A stretch of 64,000 nucleotides of DNA from Luteimonas sp. YGD11-2 (lineage in GTDB: Bacteria > Pseudomonadota > Gammaproteobacteria > Xanthomonadales > Xanthomonadaceae), in the NCBI RefSeq assembly GCF_004118975.1, contig NZ_CP035376.1, positions 2,728,001-2,792,000 of the forward strand. Reading direction: 5' to 3'. Position numbers and translations under genes: made by a program. This document shows positions 30,823 to 58,063 of this stretch, in pieces; the stretch's first letter is position 1; each line of letters begins with the position of its first letter. Under the pieces are notes generated by a model, which was not told the DNA's origin, searched no databases, and saw only the letters and a program-made list of their open reading frames with translations.

Positions 30823-33114
30823 TCACTCGACCCGGTCGGCGGCCCGGCCGGCCTCGTCCGCCTGCTGCTGGCGCATCGGATCGAGCGCGCGGAAGCGGCG
30901 GCCGTACTCGTCGGTGAGGCGGCGCGCCTCGTTGGGATCGCGCACGATGGTCGGGGTCAGCAGGATGATCACCTCGCTGCGCTCGCTGGCGATGCGCTGC
31001 TGGCCGAACAGCCCGCCCACCACCGGGATGCGGCTCAGCCCCGGGAAGCCGGTGGAGCCGCGGGTGTTCTGGTCGCTGATCAGGCCGGCCAGCATCACCG
31101 TGTCGCCGGCCTGCACCGCGGCTTCGGTCTTCATGCGCCGGGTATTGATGCGCACGTTGCCGTACTGGTCGGGCTCGTCGCCGGGGGTGCTCACTTCCTG
31201 CACGATGTCGAGGAACACGGTGCCGTCGCGGGTCACCCGCGGGCGCACGGTGAGGATGATGCCGGTATCGATGTACTGCACCTGGCTGATGGCGTTGTCG
31301 CCGCCGCCGAACACCGGGTTGACGCTGACCGAGGCCACCGGGATGCGACTACCGACGTTGAGCGTGGCCTCGGCGTTGTTGCGCACGAACACCGATGGCG
31401 TCTGCAGCAGGCGCACGTCGGTGACCTGGTCGAGCGCCGACAGCACCGCCGCGGCATTGCGGCCGAGGAAGGTCCAGCCCAGCCCGGGGCCAACGCCGCC
31501 CTGGGTGGTGCCGCTGACATTGCCGGCCAGGCCACTCCAGGTCGTACGTCCCACCGCGCTGGGCAGGCCGGCGTCGGTCACGGCGCGCTCGAAGAACCAG
31601 TTCACGCCGTAGCGCAGGTCGCCGGTGAGCAGCACCTCGGCCACCTGCGCCTCGATATGCACCTGCATCGGCATCACGTCGAGCCGCTCCACCACCTCGC
31701 GGATCGACTTCCACGCCGAGGCCGTCGCACGTACCAGCAGGGTGTTGGTCTCGTCCACCGCGGACACACCGACCCGCGACCCCTCGACTTCCAGCATCAC
31801 GCTGGTATTGCCCTGGCTGGCCGGGTTGAGCGACATCTCGCCCTGGAAGCCTCCGCCGGTGCCGGCGCCGCCACCGAAACGGTCGTTGCCGCTACTCATC
31901 GACGTGTCGTCGCGGCGGCTGTCGTCCTGGCTGCCGATGCGCGTCTGCGTGGTGCCCGGCATCAGCGACGCACTGCCCCCGGTATCGCCCGAACCACCCG
32001 ACGATGCTCCGAACACCTGCGCCAGCCGCTCGGCCAGCTCCGCCGCCTTGATGTACTTGAGTTCGTAGGAGAACAGCCGCGACTCGCCGCCGGCGGTGTC
32101 GATGCGCTCCAGCCAGCGCTGGATCTCGTCGAGGTAGGCCGGCTGTGAGGTGATCACCATCACCGCGTTGGCCCCGTCCAGCGGCAGGAAGCGGAACATG
32201 CCGGCCACCGGCGAGCCGCTGTCCTCGCCGAACACCTTCTCGAGGTCACCGACCACCTGGGTGGCGCGGCCGGATTCCAGCGGGAACACGCCCACCGACA
32301 TCCCGGCCAGCCAGTCGACATCGAAGATCTCGATCGTGCGCAGGTAGTTCTCGAGCTCGGCGCGGGTGCCGGCCACGGTGATCACGTTGCGGCCGTTGTC
32401 GACGTTGACGATCGAATTCGGCCGCGCGTAGGGCTCGAGGATCTTCTCCATCTCGGTGGCGGAGATGTACTGCAGCTGCACCGTGCGCGCCTCGAAGCCG
32501 CGCGCGCCCGCCGCGCTGCCGGTGCGCGGGGCGACCGCGCCGGTGGCCATCGCGGTATCGGCAGGCACGATGTTGTAGCGGCCGTCGCTGTAGATCATCC
32601 GCGCGTTGTTCCAGCCCAGCACCATCTCCAGCAGGCTCAGCGCCTGCGAGGCGCCGACCGGACGCGGCGTGGCCAGCGTCACCGTGCCCTGCACTTCCGG
32701 GGCGATCACGTAGTTCTGGCCCAGCATGTCGCCGAGCACCGCCTTGACCACGGCGTGCACGGATTCGCCCTCGAAGTTGAAGGTGGCCTCTCCGCTGGTG
32801 GCGCTGAGGTTGGGCAGCGGCTGCGCGGCGGCGGCGCGGTTGATGGTCTGCTGGGTGCCGCGGCGCACCTGCGCGCGCGGGCCGGCTTCCGCCTCGTCGA
32901 GTGCTTCGCGCTCGACCTCGCCCGGCGCCACCATCGGCTGGGCATCGCGGCGGATCTCCGGCACCGCGATCGAGGCGCAGCCGGTGAGCAGGCCGAGCAG
33001 CAGTGCGAGCGCGAAGGGGCGCAGACGGAACATGCCGTAATGGAGCACGCGGTAATGGAGCAGGCGGTAATGGAGCAGGCCGTAACGGAGCAGGGCGGAT
33101 CGGGATCGCGTCAT
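30823..33114 (-). CDS. gspD: Type II secretion outer-membrane secretin GspD (XpsD)
   Basis: Multimeric outer-membrane channel of the type II secretion system. 763 residues from the ATG that overlaps the gspN stop by 4 bp. Signal region ends in LLTGC (Cys46), so it is a lipoprotein, as reported for Xanthomonas XpsD. N0-N3 domains occupy about residues 90-450 with a Ser/Gly/Asp-rich insert near 370-430; the secretin domain (about 520-735) shows VQYIDTGIILTVRPRV and MLAGLISDQN. The first 28 residues are encoded by a 4 x 15-bp tandem repeat; an internal ATG at 33033 (MFRLRPFALALLLGL) would give a conventional signal peptide and is a credible alternative start. Confidence 0.96.
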   Translation of the reverse strand: MTRSRSALLRYGLLHYRLLHYRVLHYGMFRLRPFALALLLGLLTGCASIAVPEIRRDAQPMVAPGEVEREALDEAEAGPRAQVRRGTQQTINRAAAAQPLPNLSATSGEATFNFEGESVHAVVKAVLGDMLGQNYVIAPEVQGTVTLATPRPVGASQALSLLEMVLGWNNARMIYSDGRYNIVPADTAMATGAVAPRTGSAAGARGFEARTVQLQYISATEMEKILEPYARPNSIVNVDNGRNVITVAGTRAELENYLRTIEIFDVDWLAGMSVGVFPLESGRATQVVGDLEKVFGEDSGSPVAGMFRFLPLDGANAVMVITSQPAYLDEIQRWLERIDTAGGESRLFSYELKYIKAAELAERLAQVFGASSGGSGDTGGSASLMPGTTQTRIGSQDDSRRDDTSMSSGNDRFGGGAGTGGGFQGEMSLNPASQGNTSVMLEVEGSRVGVSAVDETNTLLVRATASAWKSIREVVERLDVMPMQVHIEAQVAEVLLTGDLRYGVNWFFERAVTDAGLPSAVGRTTWSGLAGNVSGTTQGGVGPGLGWTFLGRNAAAVLSALDQVTDVRLLQTPSVFVRNNAEATLNVGSRIPVASVSVNPVFGGGDNAISQVQYIDTGIILTVRPRVTRDGTVFLDIVQEVSTPGDEPDQYGNVRINTRRMKTEAAVQAGDTVMLAGLISDQNTRGSTGFPGLSRIPVVGGLFGQQRIASERSEVIILLTPTIVRDPNEARRLTDEYGRRFRALDPMRQQQADEAGRAADRVE
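33035..33094 (-). repeat. 15-bp tandem repeat x4 at gspD 5' end
   Basis: Four consecutive 15-mers of the form C(C/G)GTAA(T/C)GGAGCA(C/G)G. On the coding strand they encode LLRYG, LLHYR, LLHYR, VLHYG. Units are multiples of three, so copy-number change would not shift the gspD frame. Confidence 0.9.
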
Positions 33115-57008: not shown

Positions 57009-57302
57009 TCAGCCCTTGCCGAGCAGCAGGTCGTGGAGCCGCTGGAGCCAGGCGCGCCAGGTGGCGCCGTCCTCCGTGGGATCGTATTCGCAACCCATGT
57101 CGCGTGCGATGGCGCCCAGCGCGGCCTCGTCGTGGTCGTGTGACAACAGCCGTGCGATGTCTTCGGCCGCCGCCTCGACCTGCGCGGGCGACTCCGACTC
57201 ACGGTAGTAGTCGATCACCCCTTCCGGCTTGCCGTGTTCGGTCTGCCAGTCCTGGTGGAAGTACGCGGCAAGGAAGTTCTCGAGGTGCGGGTAATCGCTC
57301 AT
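57009..57302 (-). CDS. CdiI-type immunity protein
   Basis: 97 residues. The opening YPHLENFLAAYFHQDW is characteristic of the contact-dependent inhibition immunity family CdiI_2, and an acidic, all-helical body follows with DYYRESESPAQVEAAAEDIA. A strongly acidic composition is usual for a partner of a basic nuclease domain. It starts 11 bp after the stop of the RNase A-fold gene on the same strand, the normal toxin-then-immunity order. Function by family: binds and neutralises the adjacent toxin. Confidence 0.88.
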   Translation of the reverse strand: MSDYPHLENFLAAYFHQDWQTEHGKPEGVIDYYRESESPAQVEAAAEDIARLLSHDHDEAALGAIARDMGCEYDPTEDGATWRAWLQRLHDLLLGKG

Positions 57303-57313
57303 CGGCTCGGCGC

Positions 57314-58063
57314 TCAGGGCGGTGTCGGATAACCGGTGACGATTCTATAGCCGATGTCCAGACGGTCCGACCGCTCCAGCACCAGCCGCACCGAATGGAC
57401 ATCGGTAGCGTCGCTGTCGCCACGTTTCACCGAGATGCCGGTGCTCGCATCGAAGCGTGCATCCACCACCAGACGGTTGCCGCCCTGTCCATCGAGCCAG
57501 GCATCGATACGGTCCTGATGCTCGTCGAGGGTGGCCGACACGAAGTGCTCGGCGGCAGGCAGGTCGACGAAGCTGGAGGCGGCACTGATGTTCTCGCGGC
57601 GCACGCGGTCCACCAGCCACTGCTCGCTCTTGCCGACGTGGCGCTCGATCAGATGCCCACCGACATCCTCGTGCGCCTCGAGGCCACCGCCCGGTACCCG
57701 GCCGGTACCATCGGGCGCGTCGGGGCCTTCGGCGCCGAGGTGTTCGCCCAGTCGCTCGATAGTGCCCTCCAGCGTCTCGCGCGTGGCGGCGTCGAGCCCG
57801 CGCGTGGACATGCCTTCGAGCGCGGCCTGGATGCGACCAAGCAGCGGATCGAGCTGTTCACCGAACACCGGCGACTGCACGGCAAGCGCAATGGCGTCAT
57901 CGACCTGGCCGAGGAAGTCCGGCAGCGCGCCGCTGTCGGCAAGGTCGGCAAGATGGCGTTCGAGATCGAGACCCGACGCCGCGGCATCGAGTGCGGACAT
58001 CGGCTTCATGGCCTGGAAAGGGTGCAGCGGCGACTGCGCCAGCGGATTGATCGCGTCGAGCAT
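57314..58063 (-). CDS. Orphan toxin with CdiA-CT type RNase A-like domain
   Basis: 249 residues from an ATG with GGAG 7 bp upstream. Residues 1-125 form an acidic/helical region without a signal peptide or recognised domain. Residues 126-249 match the bacterial RNase A-like toxin domain: GGHLIERHVGKS, an internal SFVDLPAAEHFVS and terminal TGYPTPP. The four catalytic positions known for the Yersinia kristensenii CdiA toxin (His, Arg 11 residues later, Thr 101 later, Tyr two after) are all present: His142, Arg153, Thr243, Tyr245. It probably cleaves tRNA or other RNA. No CdiB, RHS, VgrG or PAAR lies nearby, so the delivery route is unknown. Confidence 0.85.
   Translation of the reverse strand: MLDAINPLAQSPLHPFQAMKPMSALDAAASGLDLERHLADLADSGALPDFLGQVDDAIALAVQSPVFGEQLDPLLGRIQAALEGMSTRGLDAATRETLEGTIERLGEHLGAEGPDAPDGTGRVPGGGLEAHEDVGGHLIERHVGKSEQWLVDRVRRENISAASSFVDLPAAEHFVSATLDEHQDRIDAWLDGQGGNRLVVDARFDASTGISVKRGDSDATDVHSVRLVLERSDRLDIGYRIVTGYPTPP

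Follow-up and report, generated by a model that had tools for sequence, protein, structure and literature searches.

The toxin of the CdiA-CT/CdiI pair of Yersinia kristensenii (PDB 5e3e) forms the tip of a CdiA protein, and its active-site residues are H175, R186, T276 and Y278, as given in the active-site description of PMC9086364. The Luteimonas pair analysed here has the toxin domain, the four catalytic residues and the immunity family in common with that system, whereas its toxin is a 249-residue protein with a leader and half of a polymorphic-toxin stem. Ribocin (RbcN) of Pseudomonas aeruginosa is a free-standing bacterial RNase of the same fold; unlike the toxin studied here, it has a signal peptide, cleaves eukaryotic ribosomes and is distant in sequence, and the passages describing it report no stem (PMC13189344). 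Polymorphic toxin systems, as outlined by Zhang et al. 2012 (PMC3482391), share with this locus exchangeable C-terminal toxins on a common upstream part, immunity genes behind them and orphan immunity. Their export routes, as listed in Table 1 of that paper, do not appear to include a type III secretion system (T3SS), and its text records one toxin gene, from Shewanella, that lies within a T3SS operon. The stem found here is not in Pfam.

Bactericidal type IV secretion effectors of the Xanthomonadales form toxin–immunity pairs served by a machine other than a type VI secretion system (T6SS) in a related family (PMC6536674, PMC10933484); unlike those systems, the genome studied here has no TrbI/VirB10 match. 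The T3SS* of Myxococcus xanthus is a T3SS-type machine tied to attack on bacteria, with a cluster that has no secretin gene and effectors described as unknown in its account (PMC10433427), whereas the present analysis offers candidate effectors accompanied by immunity genes, and a secretin is encoded in at least the Sphingomonas lenta cluster. In type II toxin–antitoxin systems the toxin has no export or pre-toxin parts, whereas the Luteimonas toxin retains half of an effector stem. Among the papers listed in our literature search, which covered listings (some of them shortened) and the starts of abstracts and left preprints and most subscription papers outside its scope, none dealt with T3SS-delivered antibacterial effector–immunity pairs. 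Neither the toxin domain nor the immunity family is new; as far as our searches go, the shortened free-standing form, the stem that ties this RNase to other toxins and the link between stem toxins and a T3SS clade are.

The window, a stretch of 64,000 nucleotides from Luteimonas sp. YGD11-2, carries the pair near its end, with the following features:

57009..57302, minus strand: immunity gene of the CdiI_2 family, 97 aa (PF18593, E 2.6e-29; 5e3e_A, E 6.5e-4)
57314..58063, minus strand: toxin gene, 249 aa, comprising leader, half-stem, linker and RNase A domain
57320..57661, minus strand: RNase A-type toxin domain, residues 135-248 (PF18431, PDB 5e3e_B)
57329..57331, minus strand: Tyr245 codon, equivalent to Y278 of CdiA-CT Ykris
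57335..57337, minus strand: Thr243 codon, equivalent to T276 of CdiA-CT Ykris
57605..57607, minus strand: Arg153 codon, equivalent to R186 of CdiA-CT Ykris
57638..57640, minus strand: His142 codon, equivalent to H175 of CdiA-CT Ykris
57737..57994, minus strand: helical domain, residues 24-109, homologous to the second half of the polymorphic-toxin stem
58004..58063, minus strand: leader, residues 1-20, proposed export signal, with disorder predicted over residues 1-19

The only Pfam content of the toxin is RNAse_A_bac (PF18431), matched by residues 136-246 at 112.7 bits (cut-off 27, E 2e-32) with the model covered in full (positions 1-113 of 113). Its nearest solved structure by sequence in a PDB search is 5e3e_B, the Y. 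kristensenii CdiA-CT (E 1.6e-25). His142, Arg153, Thr243 and Tyr245 are invariant in 26 of 26 aligned homologues (the alignment takes 26 of the 199 found, 120 of which were listed), and they lie at the spacing of 11, 101 and 103 residues after His142 that an earlier note on this DNA had given when it proposed an RNase A toxin with a full catalytic set. With these residues in place the domain would be an active RNase. A Foldseek comparison of the toxin model with 5e3e returned E 1e-6, the RNase part being poorly predicted by AlphaFold (pLDDT about 38-77 by block; mean 62.8). The CdiI_2-type gene that the earlier note placed 11 bp downstream is borne out on the same strand, its product matching PF18593 at 102.2 bits (cut-off 26.7) and having 5e3e_A as its nearest PDB structure by sequence; it would inhibit the toxin. 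The absence of a signal peptide also holds on a simple Kyte–Doolittle test, because the best 12-residue mean in residues 1-40 is 0.80 and there is no strongly hydrophobic N-terminal stretch. The note went too far in calling the gene unlike known cases, since free-standing bacterial RNase A-fold proteins exist, among them NCBIfam family NF041883 (RNase_A_lipo) and Ribocin (as presented in PMC13189344).

Toxin and immunity gene are strictly coupled across the genus. The RNase toxin with its immunity gene is present in 26 of 52 Luteimonas genomes, and CdiI_2 in 27, namely exactly those 26 and genome G038; the other 25 have neither gene. The two genes are co-directional and 5-75 bp apart in 25 loci, window included, as called with a simple codon-model gene caller; at the twenty-sixth (L041) the caller missed the toxin, and adjacency to the immunity gene was taken from search coordinates. 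Taken together, the sequence evidence establishes a real RNase toxin–immunity pair. A second CdiI_2 match, weak, partial and away from the toxin, was seen at G025:C42:134075-134236 (29.1 bits, cut-off 26.7). PF18431 was found in 3 of 369 sampled genomes of the class, one of them the genome of the window, and the best named full-length match to the toxin is an L. yindakuii protein at 92% identity.

Both genes are under purifying selection. In comparisons with the two closest orthologues, the toxin gene has dN/dS values of 0.087 and 0.095 (N-terminal half 0.127 and 0.137, RNase half 0.051 and 0.031), and the immunity gene has 0.069 and 0.077. We compared 27 loci, the window and 26 others, with gene calls from the simple codon model; 23 of them, G038 included, share a common setting in which one or both of a DUF4136-like gene and an inorganic pyrophosphatase gene lie close by. 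A second site is common to the window, G033 and G051, and a third is occupied in G001. The pyrophosphatase neighbour was identified by Pfam; the names of other neighbours, such as the DUF4136-like gene, are presumptive.

These observations bear on whether the gene is a decaying orphan tip, displaced from a larger toxin and now functionless. Such an origin would account for a toxin domain of the kind found at a CdiA tip, and other phyla do have large proteins with the stem near their C-terminal end. Intact catalytic residues in every aligned relative, dN/dS of about 0.09 and a single site in 23 of 27 loci make decay extremely improbable. Displacement from a cdi locus, one of three options raised in the earlier note, finds no support: the protein has no CdiA-like long part or two-partner secretion domain in its 249 residues, and the gene is conserved and mostly syntenic in half of the genus, where it has an upstream part of its own. 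Carriage as mobile-element cargo was also considered and rejected: no phage record matched the toxin at E 1e-5, and the 11 plasmid records that matched were all below 60% identity, none covering more than 80% of the query; among the 10 of these 11 that were listed, the alignment was restricted to the RNase part.

The N-terminal part of the toxin divides into a leader and a helical domain. AlphaFold leaves residues 1-19 disordered (pLDDT below 50) and folds residues 24-109 into helices (pLDDT mostly 80-92). Searches returned no convincing PDB fold for this domain: Foldseek rows other than 5e3e were at E above 0.5, and the VIA-align rows were ordinary helical bundles. Neither Pfam nor NCBIfam matched a trafficking domain outside the RNase domain. 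To that extent the earlier description of the N-terminal domain as unknown stands, but relatives identify it. Residues 25-113 align with the middle of protein P0134 at 44% identity (E 4e-17), and the domain matches a profile of the stem (E 1.6e-8), which itself has no match in Pfam. The full stem has a conserved hydrophobic first half, with EPTPFAD invariant in 14 of 14 rows; the window toxin is without that hydrophobic half and keeps the second. Judged by homology, then, the N-terminal domain corresponds to the latter half of a polymorphic-toxin stem, which in other proteins stands in front of different nuclease toxins.

In a search among proteins of 137-436 aa, the half-stem was fused to RNase in 49 of 49 cases, which ties this form to the RNase within that size range. 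The half-stem is not in every carrier, because the toxins of G003 (L026) and G022 (L027), with start codons of our choosing, consist of a short leader and the RNase domain and have no helical half-stem. That arrangement is the form expected of an N-terminal export signal. The fraction of S, T, P, N and Q in residues 2-21 is 0.345 in 111 related toxins (those of 230-265 aa among 118 RNase toxins) against 0.261 in 263 neighbouring genes, a comparison whose p-value is not independent because the rows are related. A start of the form M(x)D(x)1-2R recurs in part of the Luteimonas RNase toxins and in stem toxins of Luteimonas, Sphingomonas and Erythrobacter. It was counted in 30 of 118 RNase toxins, in 12 of 43 stem proteins from a set partly chosen as T3SS-bearing taxa, in 0 of 32 other stem proteins and in 2 of 312 control genes. 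This motif is a lead only: it was chosen after the sequences had been seen, start codons are uncertain and the window protein does not match it. Among the N-terminal domains of about 100 residues found in stem toxins, the sphingomonad–Erythrobacter and Comamonadaceae groups are weakly similar, and those of the Luteimonas group show no similarity to the other stem groups worth claiming.

A check proposed in the earlier note, for the same N-terminal domain fused to other toxins in relatives, had a positive outcome. Directly downstream of the RNase pair in G010, G025 and G046 lies a gene for a 414-415-aa protein that matches the window N-domain in its middle and terminates in a DNA/RNA non-specific endonuclease, PF13930 (assigned by a Pfam run for G010 and G046 and from a search listing for G025). 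It is followed by a 111-aa gene that is YezG-like (PF04634) in G010 and belongs to the same homology group in G025 and G046. In G038 the stem is joined to a WHH/colicin-DNase domain and followed by a SUKH-family gene. More widely, a stem search in which the best 7,993 candidates were scored found at least 41 proteins, query included. The 25 with a C-terminal Pfam listed end in PF13930 (12), WHH/colicin-DNase (7), PF15538 (3), PF18431 (2) or PF18451 (1). A scan of genome contigs yielded 52 stem loci. An open reading frame lies closely downstream of the stem toxin in 12 of 12 loci looked at; of eight such genes compared with Pfam, those of L107, L115 and L086 exceed the cut-off of the YezG-like or SUKH family, those of L092, L098 and L100 fall just below, and those of L101 and L111 have no match. 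A shared upstream part on different toxins is a trait of polymorphic toxins, as is immunity kept after toxin loss, which one genome displays. In G038 (88% complete) CdiI_2 is intact, and the RNase toxin is reduced to a 19-residue C-terminal remnant (noted at L028:2654-2904; best tblastn E 9e-7) in the 290-base gap between the CdiI_2 and pyrophosphatase genes; the WHH toxin with the same stem stands on the other side of CdiI_2. This is one of the 27 genomes carrying CdiI_2. An immunity gene kept without its toxin fits protection against neighbours, although one case proves little.

The pair could instead be an intracellular toxin–antitoxin system that acts in its producer and is never exported, another of the options in the earlier note. 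A small two-gene unit with no signal peptide, strict coupling, purifying selection on both genes and no adjoining secretion cluster in Luteimonas would all suit it. Against this are the homology of the N-domain to a stem preceding many effector-type toxins, the tandem arrays with other toxin–immunity pairs, the orphan immunity gene of G038 and the absence of any match of either gene to a PADLOC model, and we regard a purely intracellular role as quite unlikely. The PADLOC result also led us to set aside a role in anti-phage defence. The remaining option, a cargo effector of another system, is the best supported of the three, the N-domain being a shortened stem that is fused to other toxins in relatives.

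The leading candidate for that system is a T3SS. In seven genomes (five Erythrobacter, Ottowia and one other Comamonadaceae) a stem toxin shares a 9-kb flank with SctV and further genes of the export apparatus, and in Ottowia it is located between genes of the T3SS cluster. The SctV model was searched in the 46 genomes of stem loci, and a tree was made of 52 SctV/FlhA rows (duplicate rows L204 and L205 left out; one Vulcaniibacterium gene present twice). One SctV clade (22 rows, 100/100) comprises Luteimonas, Vulcaniibacterium and 17 of the 20 non-Luteimonas proteobacterial stem genomes, and may be wider because the tree contains no reference T3SS families; of the other three stem genomes, one falls among flagellar-type rows and two were left out of the tree. 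Among 149 genomes of the Sphingomonas lenta family, such an SctV occurs in five and the stem in two, both of them among the five, an overlap with a chance probability of about 0.0009, or 0.027 without the genome on which the sample was centred. A T3SS in a marine Sphingomonas was noted in 2009, in a table in which three Erythrobacter strains are entered without one (PMC2702493).

The genome of the window (G000) has such a machine:

G000:C1:3089810-3108138 (L171, L172): non-flagellar T3SS cluster, about 0.3 Mb from the pair

Scores above the NCBIfam cut-off were obtained for SctJ (by a margin of just 0.25 bits), SctV, SctR, SctU, SctQ and SctD, and above the Pfam cut-off for a YscO-like protein; SctN exceeds the cut-off of the general FliI/YscN model only, and SctI and SctL match below cut-off. 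SctS, SctT and a FliO-like gene are presumptively named after similar Erythrobacter and Ottowia genes. The cluster includes conserved genes of 106, 104 and 228 aa that have no Pfam match. It holds no secretin gene, and none of the four secretins of the genome exceeds the SctC cut-off; three score best as GspD (one scored as a fragment) and one as PilQ. By Pfam, the Sphingomonas lenta cluster encodes a secretin of 659 aa; two other clusters contain similar frames, one of 594 and one of 637 aa. Since no secretin of G000 passes the SctC cut-off, Luteimonas may borrow a secretin, its machine may resemble the Myxococcus T3SS*, or the T3SS may not be the exporter. A GspD secretin of type II secretion is encoded inside the window (30823-33114, minus strand; 540.6 bits, cut-off 351.35).

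We also compared the secretion machines of the 52 Luteimonas genomes. All 26 toxin genomes and 20 of the 26 others have a T3SS-type SctV, told apart from the flagellar type by score in the FlhA-family search, with G038 counted as toxin-free and two partial matches (G011 and G038) found on checking to be of T3SS type (p 0.023, kinship ignored; one T3SS carrier fewer would give p 0.10). Among T3SS, T6SS, TrbI/VirB10 and flagellar type, the T3SS is the sole machine in every carrier. Type IV export was discarded as an explanation, TrbI/VirB10 being absent from G000 and present in 15 of 26 genomes both with and without the toxin (p 1). So was flagellar export: flagellar-type FlhA occurs in 15 of 26 toxin genomes against 17 of 26 others, and 11 of the 26 toxin genomes have none.

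The T6SS is a serious rival. Its sheath gene (VipB) occurs in 14 of the 26 toxin genomes, G000 being one of them, and in 1 of the 26 others (p 1e-4, kinship ignored), a tighter correlation than that of the T3SS. The stem, moreover, is not T3SS-specific. Large proteins of Bacteroidia, Verrucomicrobia and other groups have it near their end, and elsewhere (in some Planctomycetes and a Rhodobacteraceae genome) stem toxins stand near genes that look VgrG- or PAAR-like, names that are presumptive. Loci of the latter kind are L093, L099, L116 and L125; in L119, L130, L132, L134 and L135 the stem is near the C-terminus of proteins of about 1,290-2,980 aa, with different ends after it. Delivery of the toxin by a T6SS nevertheless seems unlikely: 12 of the 26 toxin genomes keep the pair although they have no T6SS gene (and 11 of these 12 are at least 99% complete), the seven stem loci above have T3SS neighbours, and Pfam finds no T6SS domain in the protein. 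Many T6SS cargo effectors do, however, lack any Pfam T6SS domain.

Injectisome T3SSs are regarded as eukaryote-directed machines, and T3SS effectors are classically directed at eukaryotes. Protists or other eukaryotes might accordingly be the target of the toxin, the immunity protein only shielding the producer from its own RNase. The structurally similar Ribocin cuts eukaryotic ribosomes, but it is not close in sequence, with 15% identity to CdiA-CT Ykris in the comparison given in PMC13189344. Immunity proteins can act mainly against self-intoxication (PMC10933484). The exchange of several toxin–immunity pairs on a single stem and the survival of an immunity gene whose toxin is gone fit bacterial conflict better, and a eukaryotic target appears very unlikely.

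We favour, tentatively, an antibacterial T3SS effector with its immunity protein. In that reading the locus would be a polymorphic-toxin cassette of Luteimonas, made up of a short unstructured leader, the second half of a stem, an RNase A-fold toxin and a CdiI-type immunity gene. The leader, rather than a signal peptide, would probably direct export of the toxin through the non-flagellar T3SS about 0.3 Mb away, and the toxin would degrade RNA in neighbouring bacteria that have no immunity protein; in producers and their kin the immunity protein would block the active site. The T3SS assignment is weakened by the distance of the Luteimonas pair from that cluster, none of the 27 loci adjoining a T3SS as far as the fetched flanks extend, and by the presence of a T3SS in 20 of the 26 genomes without the RNase toxin. 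The lack of a secretin above the SctC cut-off in G000, the tighter T6SS correlation, the wider use of the stem and the loss of its first half weaken it further. It is possible, though more doubtful, that this T3SS clade as a whole would serve to inject competing bacteria with exchangeable nuclease toxins of the stem type, whose immunity genes accompany them, and that the Luteimonas RNase pair is a streamlined member with little beyond an N-terminal leader and the toxin.

Whichever machine carries the toxin, the comparison gives the origin of a free-standing RNase A toxin and adds a description of a pre-toxin stem which is common to many toxins and has no Pfam entry. Stem relatives inside T3SS clusters hint at the use of such a machine by bacterium against bacterium. 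With toxin–immunity pairs in or beside one T3SS clade of environmental bacteria, the idea of a T3SS that attacks bacteria by means of defined effectors could be put directly to the test, and such pairs could offer a model for the effectors of the Myxococcus T3SS*.
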